From positions 20,156 through 84,155 of the forward strand of contig QWHH01000013.1 of the NCBI GenBank assembly GCA_021404785.1: a stretch of 64,000 nt of DNA, given 5' to 3'. Under the pieces are notes generated by a model. It did no database searches. It had not been told where the DNA came from and saw only the letters and a list, made by a program, of their open reading frames with translations. This document shows positions 1 to 9,244 of this stretch, one piece after another. Within the stretch, counting starts at the first letter, position 1. Each line of letters opens with the position of its first letter. Source of the DNA: Lysobacterales bacterium PRO7. GTDB lineage: Bacteria > Pseudomonadota > Gammaproteobacteria > Xanthomonadales > Rhodanobacteraceae. The position numbers were made by a program, and so were the translations under genes.

Positions 1-828
1 AACGTCGCCTTCGAGCGCCGCACCGATGGCCTGATCGAGCGTGTGCCAGATGCCGTCGCTCGGGCCGTTGTCGAAATTCAGCATGTCTTCGCTGCGCAAC
101 GCGCTGACGGAAATTGTCTGCGTGCCGAGTTTGTAGTCGGCGCTGAGCGTGCCGCCGTGGTGTTGCGCGCCGTTGGCGTCCGGGTTGTAGATGCAGTACG
201 GATCGTTCGGGCCATTGCAGATGCCGGGATTGGTCGCCGAAAACCCGCCGACATGGCGCGCGCCGATCTGTACGCTGAAGCCGCCGTTGTCGTCGCGCGC
301 GCCGAATCCGGCGCTGCCGTCCGCGTCGCGGTACGTGCCATAGCTTGCGGCCAGATGCGGGCCGGTCAGCTTGCGCGTGAAAATCTGGATCACGCCGCCA
401 ATCGCGTCCGATCCCCAATAACTCGCGCGCGGACCGCGCACGATCTCGATGCGCTGGATCGCGTCCAGCGGCAAATTTTCCCAGGCGAACGCGCCGGTGT
501 TGCTCGATGCCACGCGCACGCCGTCGATCAGCACCAGCACGTGATTGGAATTGCCGCCGCGCAGAAACACGTTGGTTTGCGCACCCGGTCCGCCAGTGCG
601 CGCCATGTCCACGCCCGCTTGCAGGCGCAGCACTTCGAGCAGATCCGGCGCGTGGCTGGCCTCGATGTCTGCGCGCGTGATCACGCTGACGTCGGCGAGG
701 CTGGCATCCACGGTTTCGGCCACGCGCGATGCGGTCACTTCGACGGTGGGTTGCAGCGCCGCATCCTGTGCGTACACAGCGGCGGTCGCTGAAAAAAGAC
801 AGAGGGAAAACAACGATTGCTTGAACAT
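1..828 (-). CDS. btuB: TonB-dependent vitamin B12 receptor, BtuB-like (partial, N-terminal 276 residues)
   Basis: Outer-membrane receptor that imports cobalamin using TonB energy. The gene starts at the ATG whose complement ends at base 828 and runs off the left edge, so only the N-terminus is visible. The start MFKQSLFSLCLFSATAAVYA is a signal peptide. A plug domain follows with LRGGNSNHVLVLIDGVR, then RIEIVRGPRASYWGSDAIGG, the usual end of a TonB plug, and then the first barrel strands. Homology alone would leave siderophore or sugar receptors possible. The cobalamin riboswitch directly upstream makes B12 the most likely substrate. The C-terminal barrel cannot be judged here. Confidence 0.88.
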   Translation of the reverse strand, partial: MFKQSLFSLCLFSATAAVYAQDAALQPTVEVTASRVAETVDASLADVSVITRADIEASHAPDLLEVLRLQAGVDMARTGGPGAQTNVFLRGGNSNHVLVLIDGVRVASSNTGAFAWENLPLDAIQRIEIVRGPRASYWGSDAIGGVIQIFTRKLTGPHLAASYGTYRDADGSAGFGARDDNGGFSVQIGARHVGGFSATNPGICNGPNDPYCIYNPDANGAQHHGGTLSADYKLGTQTISVSALRSEDMLNFDNGPSDGIWHTLDQAIGAALEGDV

Positions 829-949
829 GACGATCTCCGAACGCTCACCCGCGGTTGATGGCAAGACGCGCGGAGGTCGGAGGGAGGGTGCCGGAGGCGG
901 TGTGGACGCGCGGCAGCCGTCCGTTGCCCGCCGCAACGCCTTGAGCTAT

Positions 950-1113
950 GCCGCAGGCCGGTCTCCGGGCTTGCAGGTACCTTGCTTCAATCGCCTTCCC
1001 GAGCGTCGCTCAGTGGCATGTAGATCGAGCAAACCTGCTTACCGTTGCGGGGGCAGCATCAGCTTTGCACTGATTTCCCGTTTCATCTGCCTCTTGCGAG
1101 GCAAGACACCTGC
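950..1113 (-). ncRNA. Cobalamin riboswitch upstream of btuB
   Basis: Read on the minus strand this leader shows the conserved cobalamin-aptamer blocks in order: GATGAAACGGGAA near 1087-1075, GCTGCCCCCGCAACGGTAAG around 1058-1039, the B12-box elements GCCACTG (1017-1011) and GGGAAGGC (1000-993), and AAGCCCGGAGACCGGCC near 972-956. The aptamer ends about 120 bases before the btuB start codon. No strong U-run terminator was found between aptamer and start codon, so translational control is more likely, but this is inference. B12 binding is expected to repress the receptor gene. Confidence 0.93.
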
Positions 1114-1129
1114 GACGGCGCGCAGTCTA

Positions 1130-2281
1130 TCACTTCTTGTCTGGCAGGAACGACGCGATCACGTCGTTGAGAAACCGCTGCCCAAGATCTGTTGCGCAAA
1201 CGTGATCGTTGACGCGAACAAGCCAACCACGCGCGATGGCGGAGTCCAGTCTGGCGTCGATCGCGGATGCCGGCAGTCCTGTGTGTGCGGCGAAATCCGC
1301 CATGGCGAATCCCGCGTTCAGACGCAGCGCATTGAGCATGAACTCGAACGGCAGTTGCTCGGGGGCGATCACATCGTCGCCGCCGATGCGGCGGGCGGTG
1401 GCCGCGTGTTCGAGATAACCGCGCGGCGCGCGGATTTTCCAGCGACGCCGCACCGTGCTGTCCGCGTACGTCGCCTTGCCGTGCGCGCCCGCGCCAATGC
1501 CAAGGTAGTCGCCGAAATTCCAGTAATTGAGGTTGTGCGCGCACTCACGGCCCGCACGTGCATAAGCGGACACTTCGTACTGCGCCAGCCCTGCGGCCGA
1601 CAACCGTGCCTGACAGGTTTCCTGCATGTCCCAGGCGGAATCCTCATCCGGCAAGGGTGGCGGATTCGCGGCAAATTGCGTGTTCGGTTCCAGGGTCAGC
1701 TGGTAATGCGACAAATGCGGCGTTTGCAACGAAATAGCTTTTTCCACATCGGCCAGCGCGCCAGCGAGCGTTTGCTGCGGCAGCGCGTACATCAGATCCA
1801 GGTTCAGGTTCTCGATGCCGGCATCCTGCGCCGATTTCACCGCGCGCTCGGCCTGCGCCGCGTCGTGGATGCGGCCAATGCGCTTGAGCGCATCGTCGTC
1901 GAAACTCTGCACGCCGAAGCTTATGCGGTTGACGCCGGCATTGCGATAGCCCGCGAACGGGCCGTGCTCGACCGTGCCGGGATTCGTCTCCAGCGTGATT
2001 TCGATACCGGGCGCGAACGCGAGACGCTGTGCCGCACCATCCAGAATCCGCGCGATGGATTCGGGTGAAAACAAGCTCGGTGTGCCGCCGCCGAAGAAGA
2101 TGCTACGCAATGGACGACCCAGTGCCAGCGGCAAATCTTGATCGAGATCGGCCAGCAATGCAGCGACGTATTCGTCCTGCGGAATCGCCTGCGGCGCGTT
2201 GTGCGAATTGAAATCGCAGTACGGGCACTTCTTCGCGCACCAGGGGATGTGGATGTAGAGCGCGAGCGGGGGCAGATTCAT
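1130..2281 (-). CDS. hemW: HemW, radical SAM heme chaperone
   Basis: Radical SAM protein of the HemN-like family, now regarded as a heme chaperone; many databases still call it oxygen-independent coproporphyrinogen III oxidase. It has 383 residues, the normal family length. The 4Fe-4S/SAM motif CxxxCxxC is at C15, C19 and C22 (WCAKKCPYCDF), followed by FFGGGTPSL, the SAM-binding glycine motif. It lacks the N-terminal extension of true HemN. It is the last gene of the minus-strand run that starts with rph. In related genomes hemW directly follows rdgB; here the restriction/toxin islet separates them. Only three bases lie between it and the upstream methyltransferase gene. Confidence 0.92.
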   Translation of the reverse strand: MNLPPLALYIHIPWCAKKCPYCDFNSHNAPQAIPQDEYVAALLADLDQDLPLALGRPLRSIFFGGGTPSLFSPESIARILDGAAQRLAFAPGIEITLETNPGTVEHGPFAGYRNAGVNRISFGVQSFDDDALKRIGRIHDAAQAERAVKSAQDAGIENLNLDLMYALPQQTLAGALADVEKAISLQTPHLSHYQLTLEPNTQFAANPPPLPDEDSAWDMQETCQARLSAAGLAQYEVSAYARAGRECAHNLNYWNFGDYLGIGAGAHGKATYADSTVRRRWKIRAPRGYLEHAATARRIGGDDVIAPEQLPFEFMLNALRLNAGFAMADFAAHTGLPASAIDARLDSAIARGWLVRVNDHVCATDLGQRFLNDVIASFLPDKK

Positions 2282-2284
2282 GAC

Positions 2285-5200
2285 CTACGCAAACAACGAC
2301 GCCGCCGTGGCATCCACTTCGCGCATCAGCGTACGCGTGCGTGCAAGCGCCACGACGATCTTGCGGTAATGCTCGATCTCGTCGCGCGTGAGCTTGCGGC
2401 CTTTGCGATCCTTCAGCCATTTTTCCAGCACCTGATAACCGCCGATGCGGAAGGCAAAGGTTTCGGCGTCGATGCCATCGAAGTATTGCGTCGCGTTGAT
2501 CCAGACCCTTCCCGATTTTCCATCCTTCGACGCCTCGTAGCGCAGCTTCTCCACCGCGTGATCGCCGGAAACCGGAAACGCCGGCGCGCCTTGATCGAGC
2601 GATTTATCGCGCAGCAGATGCAGCGCCACGAGTTTTTCGCCCAGCGCCGCCAGCGCGCGGAATGTGGCCATGTCCGGCGGCAGCGGAATGCGCGGGAAAT
2701 CGCTGCGCAGGTATTCGGCGTAGCGGCTGCGGTAGGTCGGCGCATGCAGCACGGCGTAGATGTAGTGGAAGATGTCTTCTGGCGTCACGCCGCCGGGCAA
2801 GCCGAACGGCGGCGTCACGGCCACGCCTAGCACGTCGGCCAGCGCGTTCAGGTAACGTGGATCGAGATTCGGATGACGGACATTCTTGGCCGGATCGAGC
2901 GTATCGTGTTCGGGGAGAAGCCAAATTGGGAAAACGTATCCGTTATTAGACGTCTTACTCGACATGCAGATCGCCTCGCTCGGCTTATCTGCAACCTGCG
3001 CGTGAGCAAATTCCTCGCCTTTGGTCAAACGCGATGTAATCAAGGACAGATTGGAATCGTCAAACTGCCGCATCACCTTTTCGACAGGCCAACCCATCAC
3101 GCCACGACTTTGGCCAGTGTAGTACGTGTACCGCGTATCGAAGGGCCGATACAGAATCGGCTTGATCAATTCACGATGCGGGCCAGGTTGCTTGCCCGAG
3201 TTCGGCGCTTTGATGTCTTTCTGCGCCCAATCGAATTTCCAATCACGCACTTCCGGCTTGGGTAGCTTGAACCGCTTGCGTGCGTCAGCCTCGCTCGCCT
3301 GTGCAAACCAGTGGATCGCTTGCCATGCTTCGTCGGCATTCCAATGGATGTTGAGTTCATCGCATTTGGTAACAATTCCGTTGCCGTATAGCGGGAAAAT
3401 TTCCGTCACCGACCAGCCGAGTTCGTAATCGCCCCACGCATCCAGATTGACCGGCACGAACGGCAATTGCGGCAGATGCGGATCAAGCTCGCGCCAATCA
3501 ATTTCCTCGAACTCGCTTTCCTCCAGACGCTGGTATTTGCTGTCGCGGTTACCCCACAATTCGGCGTGGTGCACGCGCGCGTTTCGTATGTGCTTGCCGG
3601 GTTTGCGGATCAGAAACAGGATCGCCACTCCTTGCAAGATGTCAAACACGTTCTTGTCATCGCCGTGTTGCTCGTGTTCTGGCGGCGTGATTTCCCTTTT
3701 GTTTGTGTTTCCGTGTAGGTCCAGCACGTAGATGTCGTCAAAGTCGCGCCGCAATGCCGCGCGCATTCCGCGGAAAATAACGCCATCTAGCCATGTGTGC
3801 GGCGCAATGAAGCCGACGATGCCGTGGCCTGTCTGCGCGATCCGCCAGTGTGCAAAGCGGATGAACTTGATCTCGTCAGCGTTGATCCACTTGCTGCTCT
3901 TTTCCTTGAGTTTGCTGCCGTCTGGCTCGCGTTTGTACAACTCCATCAATTCTGCGATCCACTTAGATTTGTTGCGCGACTCGCCGAAATACGGCGGATT
4001 GCCCAGCACCACTTCCACCGGTTCGCGATCCTTGACGCGCTCGGCGCCTTCGGCTTCGGCCGTCAGCCATTGCGCCATCAACTGGCCGGTCTTGCCGGCG
4101 ATGCGATCCAGCGTGTTGGTGAGAAACACATTGAGCCGGTCGCCGTCCTCGAAATGGAAACCGCGGTCGGCCAGTTCCAGCGCCAGTTTCAGATGCGCCA
4201 CGGTGTACGGCGCCATCATCAGCTCGAAGCCGAATACGCGCGGCAGCAATCTTTCGCGCACGTAATCCGGCCACGCGCCACGCATGCCGGCATCCACTTC
4301 GTGCTTCCAGATGCGGTCGATCACCTCGCGCAAAAACGTCGCCGTGCCGGTGGCGGGATCGAGAATGATCGTATCCGGATCGGCCAGCCCCGCCGCCTTG
4401 CCGAACTGCGTTTTCAGCAGGTGCTCGACGCCGCGCACGATGAAATCGACCACCGGCTCGGGCGTGTAGTAGACGCCGCGCGATTCGCGCAGGGCCGGAT
4501 CGTATTCGGCGAGAAAGGTTTCATAGAAATGGAAAATCGGATCGGTAAAGCCGCGCTTGCGCGACTGCCGGTGCAGTACCTTGTCCAGATCGGCGTGCAG
4601 CAGCGCATCCACGATTTGCTCGGCAATCCACTTGATGCCGTCGGACAGATCGAACGCGATGTGATGGAACAACTGGCGCAGGAACGGGCTCGCCTTCGGA
4701 ATCAGGGTTTCCGCTTCACGCAACGAAAAGTCGCGCGGCGTGGGATCGAACACACGCGCGGTGAACAGGCCGTAGGCGACCGTCTGCGCGAACATGTCCG
4801 CGAATTCTTCTTCTTTCAGTTCCGGCACCAGCAGTTCACGGAACGCACGTTGCTGCGCGGCCAGCGCGCCGGTATCGCCCTCGTGCTTGAGCGTTTGCAG
4901 CGTGGCATCGCGCAGCAGTTGCGTCTGCGCCGCGAGCAATTTCGCGAGTTGCTTCGGCGTGGCGACGGTCGGTGCGACCGCGTTGTAGAACGCCTGCGCC
5001 AGTTTGTTCCACTGTTCTTCTGCGTCCGGCATCGCGACGATGCCGCCGCGCGACGCGACTTCGCCGAGCCGCACACGAAGTTTCGACTCGCCGTATTCGA
5101 GCCAGATGAAATCCAGATAATCGGTGAACACGAGGTTCGGCAACGCCTCGGCGTAGCGCTTGAGTTGCACCGATTTGAGCAACTTGTCCAGCGGCTCGCC

Positions 5201-5419
5201 GATGTCCTTGGCCTCGACGTGGCCAAGGATGGTGGCGTTGCGGCGCACGACGAAATCCGGCGCGTTGCCGGCAATGCGCTGCGGCTCGTTGGTGGCCTCG
5301 ATGTTCGCCGCGCGGCTTTGCAGCAGCATCTGCAAGGCCGGGCGGTAACTGTGCTCAGTGGCGTCGCCGCGGCGGTGGACGCGATCCAGTGCGGCGATGT
5401 AGTCGGCGACGGCGGTCAT
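2285..5419 (-). CDS. Fused restriction endonuclease/N6-adenine DNA methyltransferase (type IIG or ISP-like)
   Basis: A single 1044-residue protein that probably both cuts and methylates DNA. The N-terminus has a PD-(D/E)xK nuclease signature: PDF at 54-56 and EAK at 69-71. A helical region follows to about 300. The methyltransferase core carries the motif X-like RGVYYTPEPVVDFIVR at 314-329, SAM-binding DPATGTATF at 354-362 and catalytic NPPY at 474-477, typical of gamma-class N6-adenine enzymes. The C-terminal ~500 residues resemble the specificity region of type ISP enzymes. It lacks the helicase/translocase domain of LlaBIII-type ISP enzymes, so a type IIG-like enzyme is the better description. 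No separate specificity or methylase gene is present. The 5' end lies just downstream of the toxin gene, and the region around 2870-3960 is AT-richer than its neighbours. Confidence 0.8.
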   Translation of the reverse strand: MTAVADYIAALDRVHRRGDATEHSYRPALQMLLQSRAANIEATNEPQRIAGNAPDFVVRRNATILGHVEAKDIGEPLDKLLKSVQLKRYAEALPNLVFTDYLDFIWLEYGESKLRVRLGEVASRGGIVAMPDAEEQWNKLAQAFYNAVAPTVATPKQLAKLLAAQTQLLRDATLQTLKHEGDTGALAAQQRAFRELLVPELKEEEFADMFAQTVAYGLFTARVFDPTPRDFSLREAETLIPKASPFLRQLFHHIAFDLSDGIKWIAEQIVDALLHADLDKVLHRQSRKRGFTDPIFHFYETFLAEYDPALRESRGVYYTPEPVVDFIVRGVEHLLKTQFGKAAGLADPDTIILDPATGTATFLREVIDRIWKHEVDAGMRGAWPDYVRERLLPRVFGFELMMAPYTVAHLKLALELADRGFHFEDGDRLNVFLTNTLDRIAGKTGQLMAQWLTAEAEGAERVKDREPVEVVLGNPPYFGESRNKSKWIAELMELYKREPDGSKLKEKSSKWINADEIKFIRFAHWRIAQTGHGIVGFIAPHTWLDGVIFRGMRAALRRDFDDIYVLDLHGNTNKREITPPEHEQHGDDKNVFDILQGVAILFLIRKPGKHIRNARVHHAELWGNRDSKYQRLEESEFEEIDWRELDPHLPQLPFVPVNLDAWGDYELGWSVTEIFPLYGNGIVTKCDELNIHWNADEAWQAIHWFAQASEADARKRFKLPKPEVRDWKFDWAQKDIKAPNSGKQPGPHRELIKPILYRPFDTRYTYYTGQSRGVMGWPVEKVMRQFDDSNLSLITSRLTKGEEFAHAQVADKPSEAICMSSKTSNNGYVFPIWLLPEHDTLDPAKNVRHPNLDPRYLNALADVLGVAVTPPFGLPGGVTPEDIFHYIYAVLHAPTYRSRYAEYLRSDFPRIPLPPDMATFRALAALGEKLVALHLLRDKSLDQGAPAFPVSGDHAVEKLRYEASKDGKSGRVWINATQYFDGIDAETFAFRIGGYQVLEKWLKDRKGRKLTRDEIEHYRKIVVALARTRTLMREVDATAASLFA

Positions 5420-5422
5420 GCG

Positions 5423-5683
5423 TCAGTTGCGGTACACATCGCGGCGATGGCCGATCTGGATGACTTCAACGACGAGCACGGTGTCGAAAATGTCGTACAA
5501 GATCCGGTAGTGTCCTTGCCGCACACGGAAGGTCTCCCGTCCGGCCAGCTTGATTGCGCCAACCGGCCGCGGGTCGTCTTGCAGCGCGACAATCCGCTGC
5601 ATGATGCGACGCACGTCCGTCTTCGGCACACCGCGCAAATCCTTCGATGCGCGCGCGGCAAATTTCAGTTCAAAGCGTGCCAT
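5423..5683 (-). CDS. RelE/ParE-superfamily toxin
   Basis: An 86-residue basic protein of the RelE/ParE fold. The start MARFELKFAARASKDLRGVP, the middle KLAGRETFRVRQGHYRILYD and the C-terminal strand VVEVIQIGHRRDVY match the family pattern. Members either cleave mRNA on the ribosome (RelE) or poison gyrase (ParE); the sequence does not decide between them, although the R-x-G-x-Y-R-I-L-Y-x-I core is usual in RelE. It overlaps the upstream antitoxin gene by 14 bases, the standard antitoxin-first order, and ends three bases before the restriction-methyltransferase start. All three genes may be one transcript. Confidence 0.88.
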   Translation of the reverse strand: MARFELKFAARASKDLRGVPKTDVRRIMQRIVALQDDPRPVGAIKLAGRETFRVRQGHYRILYDIFDTVLVVEVIQIGHRRDVYRN

Positions 5684-5903
5684 CGGCCTTGAGCTTGGCG
5701 ATGAATTCGGAATAGCTCAGGCGCTTGTCGTTCGCGCGCTCGGCGATGATGGCAAGATCCTCCTCGTCCTCACGCAGCGATTCGCGCACAGCGTCCGAGA
5801 CGATTTCGGAAATCGAGCGGCGCGAATCGGCGGCTTTCAGGCGCAATGCCTTGTGAAGATTTTTTTCCAGATAGATCGTGGCGCGAGTGGTTTCTGCTTG
5901 CAT
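5670..5903 (-). CDS. Ribbon-helix-helix antitoxin, RelB/CopG type
   Basis: A 77-residue antitoxin. The N-terminal half, TTRATIYLEKNLHKALRLKA followed by RRSISEIVSDAVRESL, is a ribbon-helix-helix DNA-binding domain. The acidic C-terminal tail (EDEEDLAIIAERANDKRLSY and beyond) should wrap and neutralise the toxin. It overlaps the toxin gene by 14 bases. Its start lies 39 bases after the rdgB stop codon, and that gap contains tandem ATGACGT repeats suited to RHH binding, so autoregulation is expected. Confidence 0.87.
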   Translation of the reverse strand: MQAETTRATIYLEKNLHKALRLKAADSRRSISEIVSDAVRESLREDEEDLAIIAERANDKRLSYSEFIAKLKADGTL

Positions 5904-5907
5904 GGCG

Positions 5908-5940
5908 GCACCATGACGTTATGACGTCTTGACATTGTAG
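5908..5940 (-). promoter_or_regulatory. Putative promoter and RHH operator of the toxin-antitoxin pair
   Basis: Two exact ATGACGT copies (plus-strand 5913-5919 and 5921-5927) are spaced 8 bases start to start, with a GACGTC palindrome at 5923-5928. On the minus strand a TACAAT -10 hexamer (5939-5934) precedes them; its -35 is weak. Short tandem repeats between -10 and start codon fit an operator for the RHH antitoxin. Function is inferred from position and pattern. Confidence 0.5.
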
Positions 5941-5942
5941 CA

Positions 5943-6557
5943 TCAAAACGTTTGCTGACTCAGCAGAACGCGCAACTTCGCCAGCGCCAGCCCGCGGTGA
6001 CTGATGCGATTCTTGGTCGTCGCATCGAGTTCTGCCGCGCTCAATCCGCCGCCATCATCGGGCTGGAAGATCGGGTCGTAGCCGAAGCCCTTGCGGCCGC
6101 GCGGCGCGCGCAGGATCGTACCCGGCCAGCGCCCTTCGGCGATCAGCGGTGCGGGATCATCAGGTTTACGCAGCAGGACGATGCTGCAATGGAAATGCGC
6201 GGTGCGCTGCGCAGCGGGAACGTCACGCAGTGCATCGAGTAACTTGGCGATATTCGCTTGCGCGTCGCCATGCTCGCCGGCATAACGCGCGGACAAAAGG
6301 CCCGGCGCGCCGTCGAGCGCATCCACGCAGATTCCCGAATCGTCGCCGAGCGCGGGCAGGCCTGAAGTGCGCGCGGCGTGGCGCGCCTTGATCAGCGCGT
6401 TTTCGACGAAGGTGCTGGCGGTTTCCGCGGCGTCGGAGATACCAAGCGCGGATTGCGCGATGAGTTCGACGTCGAGATCAGCGAGGATTTCGCGCATCTC
6501 GATGAGCTTGCCGGCGTTGCCGCTGGCGAGGACCAGATTCATTGAGGCGTGCTTCAC
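5943..6557 (-). CDS. rdgB: RdgB/HAM1 XTP/dITP pyrophosphatase
   Basis: House-cleaning nucleotidase that hydrolyses dITP, XTP and ITP to monophosphates so they do not enter DNA or RNA. It has 204 residues, the family length. The N-terminal LVLASGNAGKLIEM is the phosphate-binding SxNxxK motif and LPALGDDSGICVDALDGAPG the metal-binding motif; FGYDPIFQPDD and a C-terminal ISHRG are also conserved. The start may be the ATG at 6557 or the one five codons later (MNLVLAS). The start region overlaps the VOC-family stop by four bases, so the genes are translationally coupled. Confidence 0.95.
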   Translation of the reverse strand: MKHASMNLVLASGNAGKLIEMREILADLDVELIAQSALGISDAAETASTFVENALIKARHAARTSGLPALGDDSGICVDALDGAPGLLSARYAGEHGDAQANIAKLLDALRDVPAAQRTAHFHCSIVLLRKPDDPAPLIAEGRWPGTILRAPRGRKGFGYDPIFQPDDGGGLSAAELDATTKNRISHRGLALAKLRVLLSQQTF

Positions 6558-6946
6558 GCGCGCCGCTCAATCAGGTCCCAGCGGTTGCCGTACAAATCGC
6601 GGAACACGACGACCGTGCCATAGGCCTCAAGGCGCGGCGATTCCTCGAAGTGCGCGCCGGCGGCAGTCAGGCGCGCATGGTCGCGCGCAAAATCATCGGT
6701 GTGCAGGAAGAACCCGACGCGCCCGCCGTGCTGGTCGCCGATCGCGGCTTCCTGTGCAGCGGTAACGGCGCGGGCCATGATCAGACTGAAGTGGATATTG
6801 CCGGTCGGCGCCATGCGCACCCAGCGTTTGCCGCCGCCGCGGTCGTCGTCTTCGAGCAGGACGAAGCCGAGCGCATCGCGATACCAGGCGATCGCCTCGT
6901 CGTAATCGCGCACGAGTATGGCGATCATGGCGATGTGGGATTTCAT
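6554..6946 (-). CDS. VOC-family (glyoxalase/bleomycin-resistance fold) protein
   Basis: A 130-residue protein with the paired beta-alpha-beta-beta-beta modules of the vicinal oxygen chelate superfamily. Typical pieces are [20 protein letters not shown] at the start, [22 protein letters not shown] in the second half and [15 protein letters not shown] at the end. The final glutamate is the common metal-ligand position. VOC enzymes include lyases, dioxygenases and resistance proteins, so no substrate is assigned. It overlaps rph and rdgB by four bases on either side, so it is a genuine member of that operon. Confidence 0.8.
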
Positions 6947-7686
6947 GCCGACAACGCCTCGCGCTGTTTGTGTAAAAGTTCACTTATCCCTTTTTGCGCA
7001 AGTCCGAGCAGTGCATCGAGTTCTTCGCGCCGGAAAGCGTGGCCCTCGGCCGTGCCTTGCAGCTCGATGAAACCGCCGCCGTCGTTCATCACCACGTTCA
7101 TGTCGGTGTCGCAGGCCGAATCTTCTGCGTAGTCGAGGTCGAGCACCGGCACACCTTGATACACGCCCACCGACACCGCCGCGACAGCGCCGTGCAGCGG
7201 ATCGCGCTTGATCTTGTCGCGCGCCTTGAGCCAGTTGATCGCATCGACCAGCGCGACATAGGCGCCGGTGATCGCCGCCGTGCGCGTGCCGCCGTCGGCT
7301 TGCAGCACGTCACAATCGAGCGTGATCGTGCGCTCGCCGAGCGCCGCACGTTCCACGCAGGCGCGCAGTGCGCGGCCGATCAGGCGCTGGATTTCCAGAG
7401 TGCGACCACCTTGTTTTCCGCGCGCCGCTTCGCGCGCGCTGCGCTCGCCGGTCGCACGCGGCAGCATGCCGTATTCGGCCGTGATCCAGCCTTCGCCCTT
7501 GCCGCGCAGGAACGGCGGCGCCTTGTCCTCGACGCTGGCCGTGCACAGCACGCGCGTGTCGCCGAACGCGACCAGCACTGAGCCTTCGGCATGCCGTGTG
7601 TAGCGCCGTTCGATGCTGACGTTGCGCAATTGGTCCGCGGCGCGGCCGGAAGGGCGTTTGACTGTAGCCATTGAAATCTGGGCCAT
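6943..7686 (-). CDS. rph: Ribonuclease PH
   Basis: Phosphorolytic 3'-5' exoribonuclease that trims tRNA 3' ends. It has 247 residues. Conserved stretches are [20 protein letters not shown], the substrate-binding [12 protein letters not shown], and [20 protein letters not shown] with the phosphate/metal site. The C-terminus carries [18 protein letters not shown]. It heads a minus-strand operon (rph, VOC gene, rdgB and onward) and is divergent from yicC across 65 bases, which must hold both promoters. Confidence 0.96.
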
Positions 7687-7751
7687 CGAAATATCCCAAA
7701 AGCAGGGCGCGGAAGTTTACCATTGCGTCCATTGCCGCCAGTGGAATCGCC

Positions 7752-8630
7752 ATGATCCGCAGCATGACCGCGTTCGCCAGCGCGGAAACCGAAACGCCGT
7801 GGGGTGCGCTCGCGTTCGAGCTGCGCTCGGTCAACCACCGTTACCTCGAACTCAATCCGCGCCTGCCGGATGAATTGCGCGCGATCGAACCGGCCTTGCG
7901 CGAGCGCATCGCTTCGAGGCTCACGCGCGGCAAGGTCGATGCGACCTTGCGTTTTCGCCCGAACGATGCCGATGCGGCCAAGCTTCGCGTCAATGACGCG
8001 ATGGTGGAACGCCTCGCGCATCTGGCGAAATCCTTCGACGAACGCTTTCCCGACCTCGACATCGATTTCACCGGATTGCTGCAATGGCCCGGGGTGCTGG
8101 TGCAGGACGACATCGATCAGGAAGGGCTGCGCAACGCCGCGCTGAAACTGCTCGATCAGGCGCTGGCCGACATGCTCGCCACGCGTCAGCGCGAAGGCGA
8201 GCGTCTCGGCGTGTTCCTGCGCGAGCGCCTCGACGGCATTGCGAAACTCGTCGCTGATGTGCGCGGCTGGCTGCCGCAGATCCGCGAAGCGCTGCGCGCG
8301 AAATTGCAATCGCGCCTGGGCGAACTCAAGCCCGCTGCGGGGTTGGCGCAACTTGAACCGGGCCGGATCGAACAGGAGTTGGTGCTGCAGCTCTCGCGCA
8401 TCGATGTGGACGAGGAACTCGATCGCCTCACCGCGCATATCGCCGAAGCTCGTCGCGTGCTGGCGCTGCCCGACGCGGTCGGTCGGCGCATGGATTTCCT
8501 GATGCAGGAATTCAACCGCGAAGCGAACACGCTCGGTTCCAAATCCGTCGACTCACGCACCACGCAGGCGAGCGTGGAACTCAAAGTATTGATCGAGCAG
8601 ATGCGCGAGCAGGTGCAGAACATCGAATGA
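7752..8630 (+). CDS. yicC: YicC/YloC-family endoribonuclease
   Basis: A 292-residue protein of the YicC family, recently described as endoribonucleases. The start at 7752 (MIRSMTAFASAE) matches the family N-terminus; a longer open frame upstream has no support. ELRSVNHRYLELNPRLPDE near the start and the C-terminal MDFLMQEFNREANTLGSKS are family signatures. Its stop overlaps the gmk start by four bases, the common yicC-gmk pairing. Confidence 0.93.
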   Translation: MIRSMTAFASAETETPWGALAFELRSVNHRYLELNPRLPDELRAIEPALRERIASRLTRGKVDATLRFRPNDADAAKLRVNDAMVERLAHLAKSFDERFPDLDIDFTGLLQWPGVLVQDDIDQEGLRNAALKLLDQALADMLATRQREGERLGVFLRERLDGIAKLVADVRGWLPQIREALRAKLQSRLGELKPAAGLAQLEPGRIEQELVLQLSRIDVDEELDRLTAHIAEARRVLALPDAVGRRMDFLMQEFNREANTLGSKSVDSRTTQASVELKVLIEQMREQVQNIE

Positions 8631-9244
8631 GCGGCACTCTTTTCATCGTCGCCGCGCCTTCCGGCGCGGGCAAGACCAGTCTGACGCGGGCGTTGCTGCA
8701 AGGCGATCCGAACCTGTTGCTGTCGGTGTCCTACACCTCGCGCGGTGCGCGTCCGAACGAGGTCGATGGCGTGCATTACCATTTCGTCACGCGCGCCGAA
8801 TTCGAGGCGATGGTCGCGCGCGGCGAGTTCTTCGAACACGCCGTCGTGCACGGCGATCTGAAGGGCACCTCGCGCAAGGTGGTGGAAGAAGCGCTCGCCG
8901 CCGGCCGCGACGTGTTGCTGGAAATCGACTGGCAGGGCGCGCGCGTGGTGCGCGCACAAATGCCGGACGCGGTCGGGATTTTCATCCTGCCGCCGTCGCG
9001 CGCGGAACTCGAACGCCGCTTGCGCGCGCGCGCGTCGGACAGCGAGGCGACGATCCAGCGCCGTCTCGCCGACGCGCATGCGGACCTGGCCCACGCCATG
9101 GAATTCGACTACTCCATCGTCAACGACGATTTCGATGCCGCGCTTGCGCAGATGCGCGAAATCGTGGCCAGCCGTCGCGAAGGCAGTGCGTTGCCGGCTC
9201 GGGATAACGCGGCACTGCTGGCCCGATTGCTGAACTCGACCTGA
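8627..9244 (+). CDS. gmk: Guanylate kinase
   Basis: Phosphorylates GMP to GDP with ATP, essential for GTP and (p)ppGpp supply. It has 205 residues. The P-loop APSGAGKTS lies at about residues 9-17, followed by the GMP-binding signature SYTSRGARPNEVDGVHYHFV. It is coupled to yicC by an ATGA overlap. In many gammaproteobacteria gmk is directly followed by rpoZ-spoT; here a 6 kb mla block separates them. Confidence 0.97.
   Translation: MSGTLFIVAAPSGAGKTSLTRALLQGDPNLLLSVSYTSRGARPNEVDGVHYHFVTRAEFEAMVARGEFFEHAVVHGDLKGTSRKVVEEALAAGRDVLLEIDWQGARVVRAQMPDAVGIFILPPSRAELERRLRARASDSEATIQRRLADAHADLAHAMEFDYSIVNDDFDAALAQMREIVASRREGSALPARDNAALLARLLNST

Follow-up and report, generated by a model that had tools for sequence, protein, structure and literature searches.

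A candidate mobile defence cassette in the Rhodanobacteraceae: a toxin-antitoxin pair packed against a single-chain Type IIG restriction-modification enzyme between rdgB and hemW

Toxin-antitoxin (TA) and restriction genes are known to cluster, and the functional joining of such neighbours is usually unclear. Several arrangements provide a frame for comparison: ribbon-helix-helix (RHH) antitoxins commonly repress from short repeats; restriction-modification (RM) systems under C-protein control carry a helix-turn-helix controller gene ahead of the RM genes; Type ISP enzymes contain a helicase/translocase between nuclease and methyltransferase; integrative elements that target yicC have a tyrosine integrase of their own and att sites; and the guard-type systems PrrC and PARIS act beside other RM systems. 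In published descriptions, each represented here by excerpts, DrdV is termed Type IIG(S) (PMC11997821), layered 'guardian' systems are reported beside RM (PMC12707154), RM systems inserted with a long target duplication are described (PMC3874152), and the 3' end of yicC is a known genomic-island site, GI21, which is akin to the yicC islands, carrying an RM system and a HipAB pair (PMC8409611, PMC8978831). Here we describe an islet in a 64,000-nucleotide stretch of Lysobacterales bacterium PRO7 (GCA_021404785.1, contig QWHH01000013.1, positions 20,156 to 84,155 of the forward strand; G000:C11:20156-84155 in our numbering), hereafter the window, from an assembly (G000) of 2.81 Mb in 19 contigs. 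Between rdgB and hemW lie genes for an RHH antitoxin, a RelE/ParE-superfamily toxin and a single-chain RM enzyme, and we favour, with moderate confidence, the view that these constitute a mobile three-gene defence cassette in which the TA pair serves as anchor and regulator and the enzyme as exchangeable cargo.

On the evidence of the open reading frame (ORF) list and Pfam, the genes run on the minus strand in the order rdgB, RHH, toxin, RM enzyme, hemW:

5670..5903, minus strand: RHH antitoxin, 77 aa (ORF; PF01402 RHH_1, 3.8e-6)
5423..5683, minus strand: RelE/ParE-superfamily toxin, 86 aa (ORF; PF05016 ParE_toxin, 2.9e-8)
2285..5419, minus strand: single-chain Type IIG RM enzyme, 1044 aa (ORF; Pfam; PADLOC; match to 7lo5)
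5943..6557, minus strand: rdgB (XTP/dITP diphosphatase), the upstream flank, its last codons overlapping the first repeat units described below (ORF; Ham1p_like, Pfam)
1130..2281, minus strand: hemW, the downstream flank (ORF; Radical_SAM and HemN_C, Pfam; HemW equivalog)

A first-pass annotation of this DNA had placed an RHH antitoxin, a RelE/ParE toxin and a fused nuclease-methyltransferase between the two flanking genes in one direction, and ORFs, Pfam and PADLOC agree with it. The packing that it reported is exact in ORF coordinates: the RHH and toxin genes overlap by 14 nt (5670-5683), and 3 nt separate both the toxin from the enzyme (5420-5422) and the enzyme from hemW (2282-2284). The distance from rdgB to the RHH gene is 39 nt, and this stretch, together with the end of rdgB, carries tandem operator-like repeats (5907-5952). 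An RHH gene followed by an overlapping RelE/ParE-superfamily toxin gene is the arrangement of a type II TA module; PADLOC returned no match for either small protein. The islet is not a chance arrangement of ORFs, because these are long and conserved and the triplet recurs in another genome.

That genome, in line with the first-pass suggestion that the same triplet be sought elsewhere, is Rhodanobacteraceae bacterium fen_1225 (FEN; genome G527, locus L082), in which RHH, toxin and enzyme genes follow one another in the same order between yicC and gmk, with tblastn identities to the window's proteins of 69%, 55% and 73%, respectively. The FEN triplet lies ~2.5 kb from that genome's own rdgB-hemW junction, in the same gene cluster, and that junction is empty; toxin and enzyme are 3 and 6 nt apart at the two triplet sites. 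The corresponding position in the window is as follows:

8627..8630, plus strand: yicC/gmk junction, empty in the window, with a 4-nt overlap (ORFs; the TA pair stands behind yicC in FEN, G007 and G010)

Two further genomes carry the pair at yicC. In G010 it lies behind the gene and the contig ends inside the toxin gene. In G007 both TA genes are open at yicC-gmk, and a 29-nt stretch within the 36 nt ahead of a copy of the yicC end, 6 nt past the stop codon of the toxin gene, matches the beginning of the enzyme gene (alignment score 38, against a best of 32 in 2000 shuffles); the remainder of the enzyme is missing, and gmk follows further on. Judged from these sequences, G007 very probably once had the enzyme, and the pair outlived it. 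The copy of the yicC end, 84 nt long and imperfect (score 74, against a best of 34 in 200 shuffles), stands directly behind the relic and resembles an integrase attachment duplication or the long target duplication of RM systems. Of the five loci tested for flanking direct repeats only G007 has one; in the window, FEN, G012 and G515 none scored above shuffles. In G515 a tyrosine integrase is found 41 nt behind yicC (L199 561-2018, minus strand). As a separate observation, the yicC-gmk gap of G014 (L239 ~3470-4090) holds, by eye, a VapBC-looking pair, with no Pfam match for the 72-aa piece.

At rdgB-hemW the sister genome G012 carries the same pair (RHH and toxin 92% and 87% identical to the window's) followed by a 960-aa enzyme with all five MmeI domains, a helix-turn-helix and PIN pair and then hemW. 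In G012, therefore, a pair that was either retained or newly acquired is accompanied by another enzyme. A candidate scar of the window's enzyme start behind the G012 toxin was rejected, its score (14) being below the shuffle mean (15.6). The two genes behind the MmeI-type enzyme (L049 350-1374) match HTH_17 and PIN_3, and a similar HTH_17 gene stands behind an enzyme in L073. G515, which belongs to another genus, presents the enzyme without the pair: one contig carries its start, immediately after rdgB, and a second carries its end, separated from hemW by 3 nt and with the window's junction GCGTAGGTCATGAA. By tblastn its N-terminal residues 4-111 are 92% and its C-terminal residues 903-1044 are 76% identical to the window's enzyme (a separate family-wide enzyme search gave 91% and 84% for the G515 pieces), while its rdgB and hemW are 68% and 64% identical to the window's. 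That the enzyme is more alike than its neighbour genes points to transfer between genera.

Among 20 regions behind rdgB fetched from relatives, both rdgB and hemW were found in 17 (hemW was not found in the stretch fetched for L051, L056 and L064). One of the 17 is G012, which carries the pair, and in the other 16 a tblastn comparison with the window's TA and RM proteins found nothing; 13 of these have ~220 nt or less between the matched ends, and three have other sequence (0.45, 0.76 and 3.5 kb). Adjacency of the two genes, which the first-pass annotation had assumed for related bacteria, is indeed the usual state. The 3.5-kb case is G020 (L055 ~970-4450), where other ORFs occupy the gap.

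The RM enzyme matches Type_ISP_C in Pfam (9.1e-83, residues 673-1033), N6_Mtase (4e-9) and also Eco57I, and the PADLOC profile REase_MTase_IIG (1.3e-248). Its closest solved chain is 7lo5 (profile E = 3.3e-63 over 1-1046 of the profile), labelled 'Site-specific DNA-methyltransferase' in the search result, which we take to be DrdV. The following elements were located with the aid of an alignment (A1) of the window's enzyme and two relatives, the names of the methyltransferase motifs being those in general use:

5207..5257, minus strand: PD-(D/E)xK nuclease motif residues D55 ... E69-A-K71, invariant in A1 (the motif reading is our own)
4334..4360, minus strand: methyltransferase motif I, DPATGTATF, residues 354-362 (A1)
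3989..4000, minus strand: methyltransferase motif IV, NPPY, residues 474-477 (A1)
2321..3403, minus strand: target-recognition domain, Type_ISP_C, residues 673-1033 (Pfam)

Because D55, E69, K71, DPATGTxTF and NPPY are common to all three aligned enzymes, nuclease and methyltransferase look intact; the nuclease part has no Pfam match and rests on the motif residues and the alignment to 7lo5. Nuclease, methyltransferase and specificity parts reside in one chain, as in Type IIG enzymes, and by its sequence the protein is a single-chain Type IIG enzyme, the claim about its fold being carried by the match to the solved chain. No helicase family was matched in it by Pfam, and this absence speaks against Type ISP, despite the name of the C-terminal domain. 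The layout of C-protein control is likewise lacking, as the two genes ahead of the enzyme are, by Pfam, RHH and toxin.

Solved relatives of the toxin include RelE chains and Rv2866. R53, R55 and R60 are invariant in 31/31 copies of the toxin, R80 is kept in 29 and Y84 in 28. The catalytic positions of Escherichia coli RelE are K52, K54, R61, R81 and Y87; in a pairing that is our own, the conserved residues would correspond to these, with lysine replaced by arginine. The toxin is therefore likelier to be an mRNA nuclease than a gyrase poison, so far as conserved residues can indicate. Pfam identified no further domain in the toxin.

A cluster of repeats precedes the RHH gene:

5907..5952, minus strand: presumed RHH operator, consecutive 8-bp units AACGTTTT GATGCTAC AATGTCAA GACGTCAT AACGTCAT GGTGCC (pattern RRYGYYNN)
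5934..5939, minus strand: -10-like element TACAAT, inside the repeats and 30 nt ahead of the RHH start, without a consensus -35

At least two tandem units are present in 27 of the 31 TA loci, window included (shuffle mean 0.2), and three in 24 (shuffle mean 0.0). These counts were set against 200 rounds of shuffles with a pattern written after the sequences had been viewed, and the contrast is not blind; the point of the repeats is their conservation between diverged loci, not the shuffle contrast. In the 64-kb window the three-unit pattern has four overlapping matches, all in this cluster, and none on the other strand. The FEN locus has two units only, and repeats are also visible in G010 and G007. 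With tandem repeats ahead of the RHH gene in so many loci, the antitoxin's presumed operator is the only evident switch ahead of the enzyme. A consensus scan found no promoter-like or terminator-like site in 5300-6100, and thus expression of the enzyme is most simply attributed to a promoter ahead of the RHH gene. Across positions 1-9000 of the window there is no full sigma-70 match, and terminator-like sites number five, where shuffles give 10.7; the one at 2314-2298 (minus strand) falls at the extreme end of the enzyme gene. The first-pass annotation had suggested a single transcript from the packing; the absence of such sites in 5300-6100 and the same gene order in a second genome lend this support. 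The three genes probably form one transcript, and the cassette may be run from the antitoxin's own switch. In G515, which lacks the pair, a promoter-like TAGACA-16-TACCAT stands just ahead of the enzyme start (one in 400 nt, against 0.0 in shuffles).

At E 1e-12 or better the toxin was found in 5/234 family genomes at six places: at rdgB-hemW in the window's genome and G012, behind yicC in FEN, G007 and G010, and, as a more distant copy, elsewhere in FEN, where the 8.5 kb fetched gave no match to these enzymes. The rdgB-hemW and yicC copies of the five genomes form one clade with 99/95 support in a tree of 31, an earlier tree without G010 and G007 having given 89/93 for the three copies; the clade rests on RHH and toxin together. 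Since both halves of this clade have it, yicC-gmk is probably the older site, and a local move or a transfer probably brought the islet to rdgB-hemW. The enzyme, at E 1e-60, occurs in seven of the 234 genomes, with the TA in front in two (the window's and FEN); no TA was found in the stretches covered for the other five (G515, G065, G108, G141 and G017). At E 1e-120 it is present in 9/399 genomes of the order; among these nine, the TA was seen in the window's genome alone, within the stretches covered.

More distant relatives of the enzyme, taken as the best 80 of 313 from a contig scan with the enzyme alignment (71 of the 80 loci have more than 400 nt upstream), include two loci besides FEN with such a pair ahead. 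L092, a Chloroflexi bin, has an RHH-toxin-enzyme triplet with a toxin-enzyme gap of 6 nt, and L108 (Oscillatoria) has a toxin, a Phd-like antitoxin scoring below the Pfam cut-off and then 254 nt to the enzyme. The toxin hidden Markov model (HMM) matched none of 61 downstream neighbours and none of 97 control neighbours. In all flanks of the 80 loci (562,624 nt) its only matches were those in L082, L092 and L108, all within 700 nt of the enzyme, a zone that makes up 18% of the flank; this clustering is suggestive, with L082 being the case that prompted the search. Viral contigs yielded five enzyme relatives, two of them short pieces, and none matched the RHH or toxin HMM; of 44 plasmid records with the enzyme five were opened, and this TA was adjacent in none, one of them carrying VapC two genes behind the enzyme and one a ParDE ~2.7 kb ahead of it. 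Thus, the joint unit appears to have arisen locally in this family and not to be a widespread system, L092 perhaps being an independent parallel.

Several side observations concern these enzymes and their neighbours. Behind the L092 triplet a 133-aa ORF (4217-4618), whose GAGAS motif is SIR2-like by eye and which has no Pfam match, precedes transposase-like ORFs. On the Nostoc plasmid L235 (NZ_AP025736.1) an enzyme relative is followed 24 nt later by DUF2281 and then VapC genes, and on the Roseinatronobacter plasmid L232 (NZ_CP121114.1, 3001-6157) the relative is annotated as two overlapping genes. The window's genome itself has a second single-chain enzyme of the same class (L076, G000:C10:60500-71500, 3446-7924), with ISP_coupler, followed by an NTP_transf_8 nucleotidyltransferase and metK (named by eye). 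What is apparently the same trio, again named by eye, occurs in G007 (L077), the enzyme being cut by the contig end, and G059 (L073) has metK, then another enzyme and then an HTH_17 gene like that of G012. metK may be another islet site.

The proposal of a mobile cassette draws on features that can be read from sequence: the order and packing of the genes, the operator-like repeats, the triplet at two sites in two genomes, the genome with a relic and the genome with an exchanged enzyme. It should be emphasized, however, that several findings weigh against it. The enzyme does not need the TA, as five of the seven family genomes with the enzyme are without it. Measured by raw identity to the window's toxin, the one of FEN (55%) does not exceed some unlinked toxins (up to 60%). 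Only 3/71 broader loci (L082, L092 and L108) have such a TA ahead of the enzyme, and a Fisher comparison of 3/59 upstream neighbourhoods with 0/70 control genes gives p = 0.09, a value at which we do not claim that this RM family is generally linked to such pairs. The coupling of toxin and enzyme is judged from their spacing, because a -35 is not recognisable and no clear Shine-Dalgarno was seen at the toxin-RM junction. A search for a target duplication flanking the window's islet found none (score 24, with 36 of 200 shuffles as high), and the G515 enzyme is represented by two pieces, each on its own contig, that do not include its middle. The islet is therefore more than a coincidence of neighbours and less than an obligate system, TA and enzyme being joined in some lineages and apart in others. 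Accordingly, the first-pass proposal of a linked system holds to the extent that the triplet recurs in a second genome, but not as a fixed association, since the modules also occur apart and the G012 pair stands with another enzyme. The independent occurrence of pair and methylase, which that annotation had named as evidence to the contrary, is found in part: the G515 enzyme is alone at the same site, and among 29 other gammaproteobacterial TA copies, 28 of which have ~1.5 kb behind the toxin, 0/28 match the three RM query enzymes there.

This dispersion could be taken to mean that rdgB-hemW and yicC-gmk are simply hotspots that gather small defence modules, the TA and RM genes having arrived separately with no common regulation or function. 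Other modules do lie in the same gaps (the helix-turn-helix and PIN pair of G012, the VapBC-looking pair seen by eye in G014 and the integrase behind yicC in G515); in addition to the lone G515 enzyme and the 28 pairs without these enzymes, an MmeI-type enzyme was found without such a TA, in the flank covered, in 13/13 other family genomes. An independent pile-up, however, would have to repeat itself: at two sites an RM enzyme of one subfamily stands behind a pair of one TA clade, in the same order and at a spacing of 3 and 6 nt, and in a third genome the TA is followed by what is left of the RM start; we regard separate arrival as possible but doubtful. It could also be argued that the RM gene is the mobile, selfish part and the TA a passive remnant whose promoter the enzyme happens to use. 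The apparent exchange of the enzyme between genera, with the 92%/76% identity of the G515 enzyme set against the lower values for rdgB and hemW and the same RM-hemW junction, would fit this, but in G007 and G012 the TA stayed while the RM left or differs, which is the opposite direction, and such a scheme appears very improbable.

The first-pass annotation had further proposed that the toxin may act as a back-up to the enzyme. In a guard scheme of this kind, as with PrrC and PARIS, the toxin would stay inhibited as long as restriction is working and fire once a phage disables or bypasses the enzyme. The tight linkage of the two genes and the precedent, in the excerpts of PMC12707154, of guardian systems layered beside RM are in keeping with such a role. 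The idea is disfavoured, however, because the pair has outlasted the enzyme: in G007 nothing but the enzyme start is left, with both TA genes open and the pair apparently tolerated. The toxin, moreover, has its own adjacent antitoxin and, in Pfam, no further domain, and the G515 enzyme occurs without the toxin. We therefore consider a back-up function unlikely, while addiction, or maintenance of the islet, is possible.

On the reading that we favour, the three genes would be transcribed as one from a promoter ahead of the antitoxin. The RHH protein, with the toxin, would bind the tandem 8-bp repeats, which overlap the -10, and thereby control toxin and enzyme levels jointly. Methylation and cleavage by the enzyme would resemble those of DrdV. 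The toxin would act as a ribosome-dependent mRNA nuclease, making loss of the pair costly and thereby anchoring the islet, and the enzyme, as cargo, could be lost or replaced. A bolder version, which we put forward tentatively, has the antitoxin as controller of the restriction enzyme and the pair as a portable regulated socket for such enzymes. RHH-toxin complexes on the tandem operator would keep toxin and enzyme low; infection or stress would drain the antitoxin, the toxin would be freed and the same promoter would open, and the enzyme would rise as translation is throttled. The enzyme slot could then be refilled with unrelated single-chain enzymes, whether DrdV-like or MmeI-like. The genomes form a natural series (triplet at one site, triplet at another, pair with another enzyme, pair with an enzyme relic, and enzyme alone) that would let one ask about regulation of the restriction enzyme by the antitoxin and about any stabilising effect of the pair on the islet.

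The islet shares features with several known systems. Like RHH-RelE/ParE type II modules it has the antitoxin first, an overlapping toxin and operator-like repeats at the presumed promoter, but here the third gene is a restriction enzyme. The enzyme resembles the DrdV-type Type IIG chains (7lo5/7lvv) in its length (1029 aa in the latter) and in the order of nuclease, methyltransferase and target recognition, and differs in sitting 3 nt behind a TA pair. With the Type ISP enzymes LlaBIII and LlaGI (4xqk, 5ffj) the methyltransferase aligns and, for LlaBIII, also the C-terminal specificity domain, the LlaBIII match starting at residue 296 of the window's enzyme and residue 846 of LlaBIII; those proteins, however, have 1406-1578 aa, in contrast with 1044 aa and no helicase family match here. 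Islands integrated at yicC, as excerpted from PMC8409611 and PMC8978831, use the same target gene end but measure ~21-37 kb and carry an integrase, whereas the window's islet spans ~3.6 kb and Pfam identified no integrase among its three genes. The ~84-nt copy of the yicC end behind the G007 islet recalls the RM systems with a long target duplication in the excerpt of PMC3874152, from which the window's site differs in having no duplication that we could find. In concept a close precedent is the RptR-controlled island, a Type I RM system with an embedded DarTG2 (as excerpted from PMC12255303), although it has a dedicated regulator and a multi-gene Type I RM, while the islet would have its antitoxin as repressor and has a single RM gene. 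Among the papers listed in searches of open-licence PMC literature, judged by titles and the openings of abstracts, there is none on an RHH-RelE pair joined to a Type IIG enzyme, which is not proof of absence; relative to these systems, the novelty of the islet is its arrangement and the natural series of variants in which it occurs.

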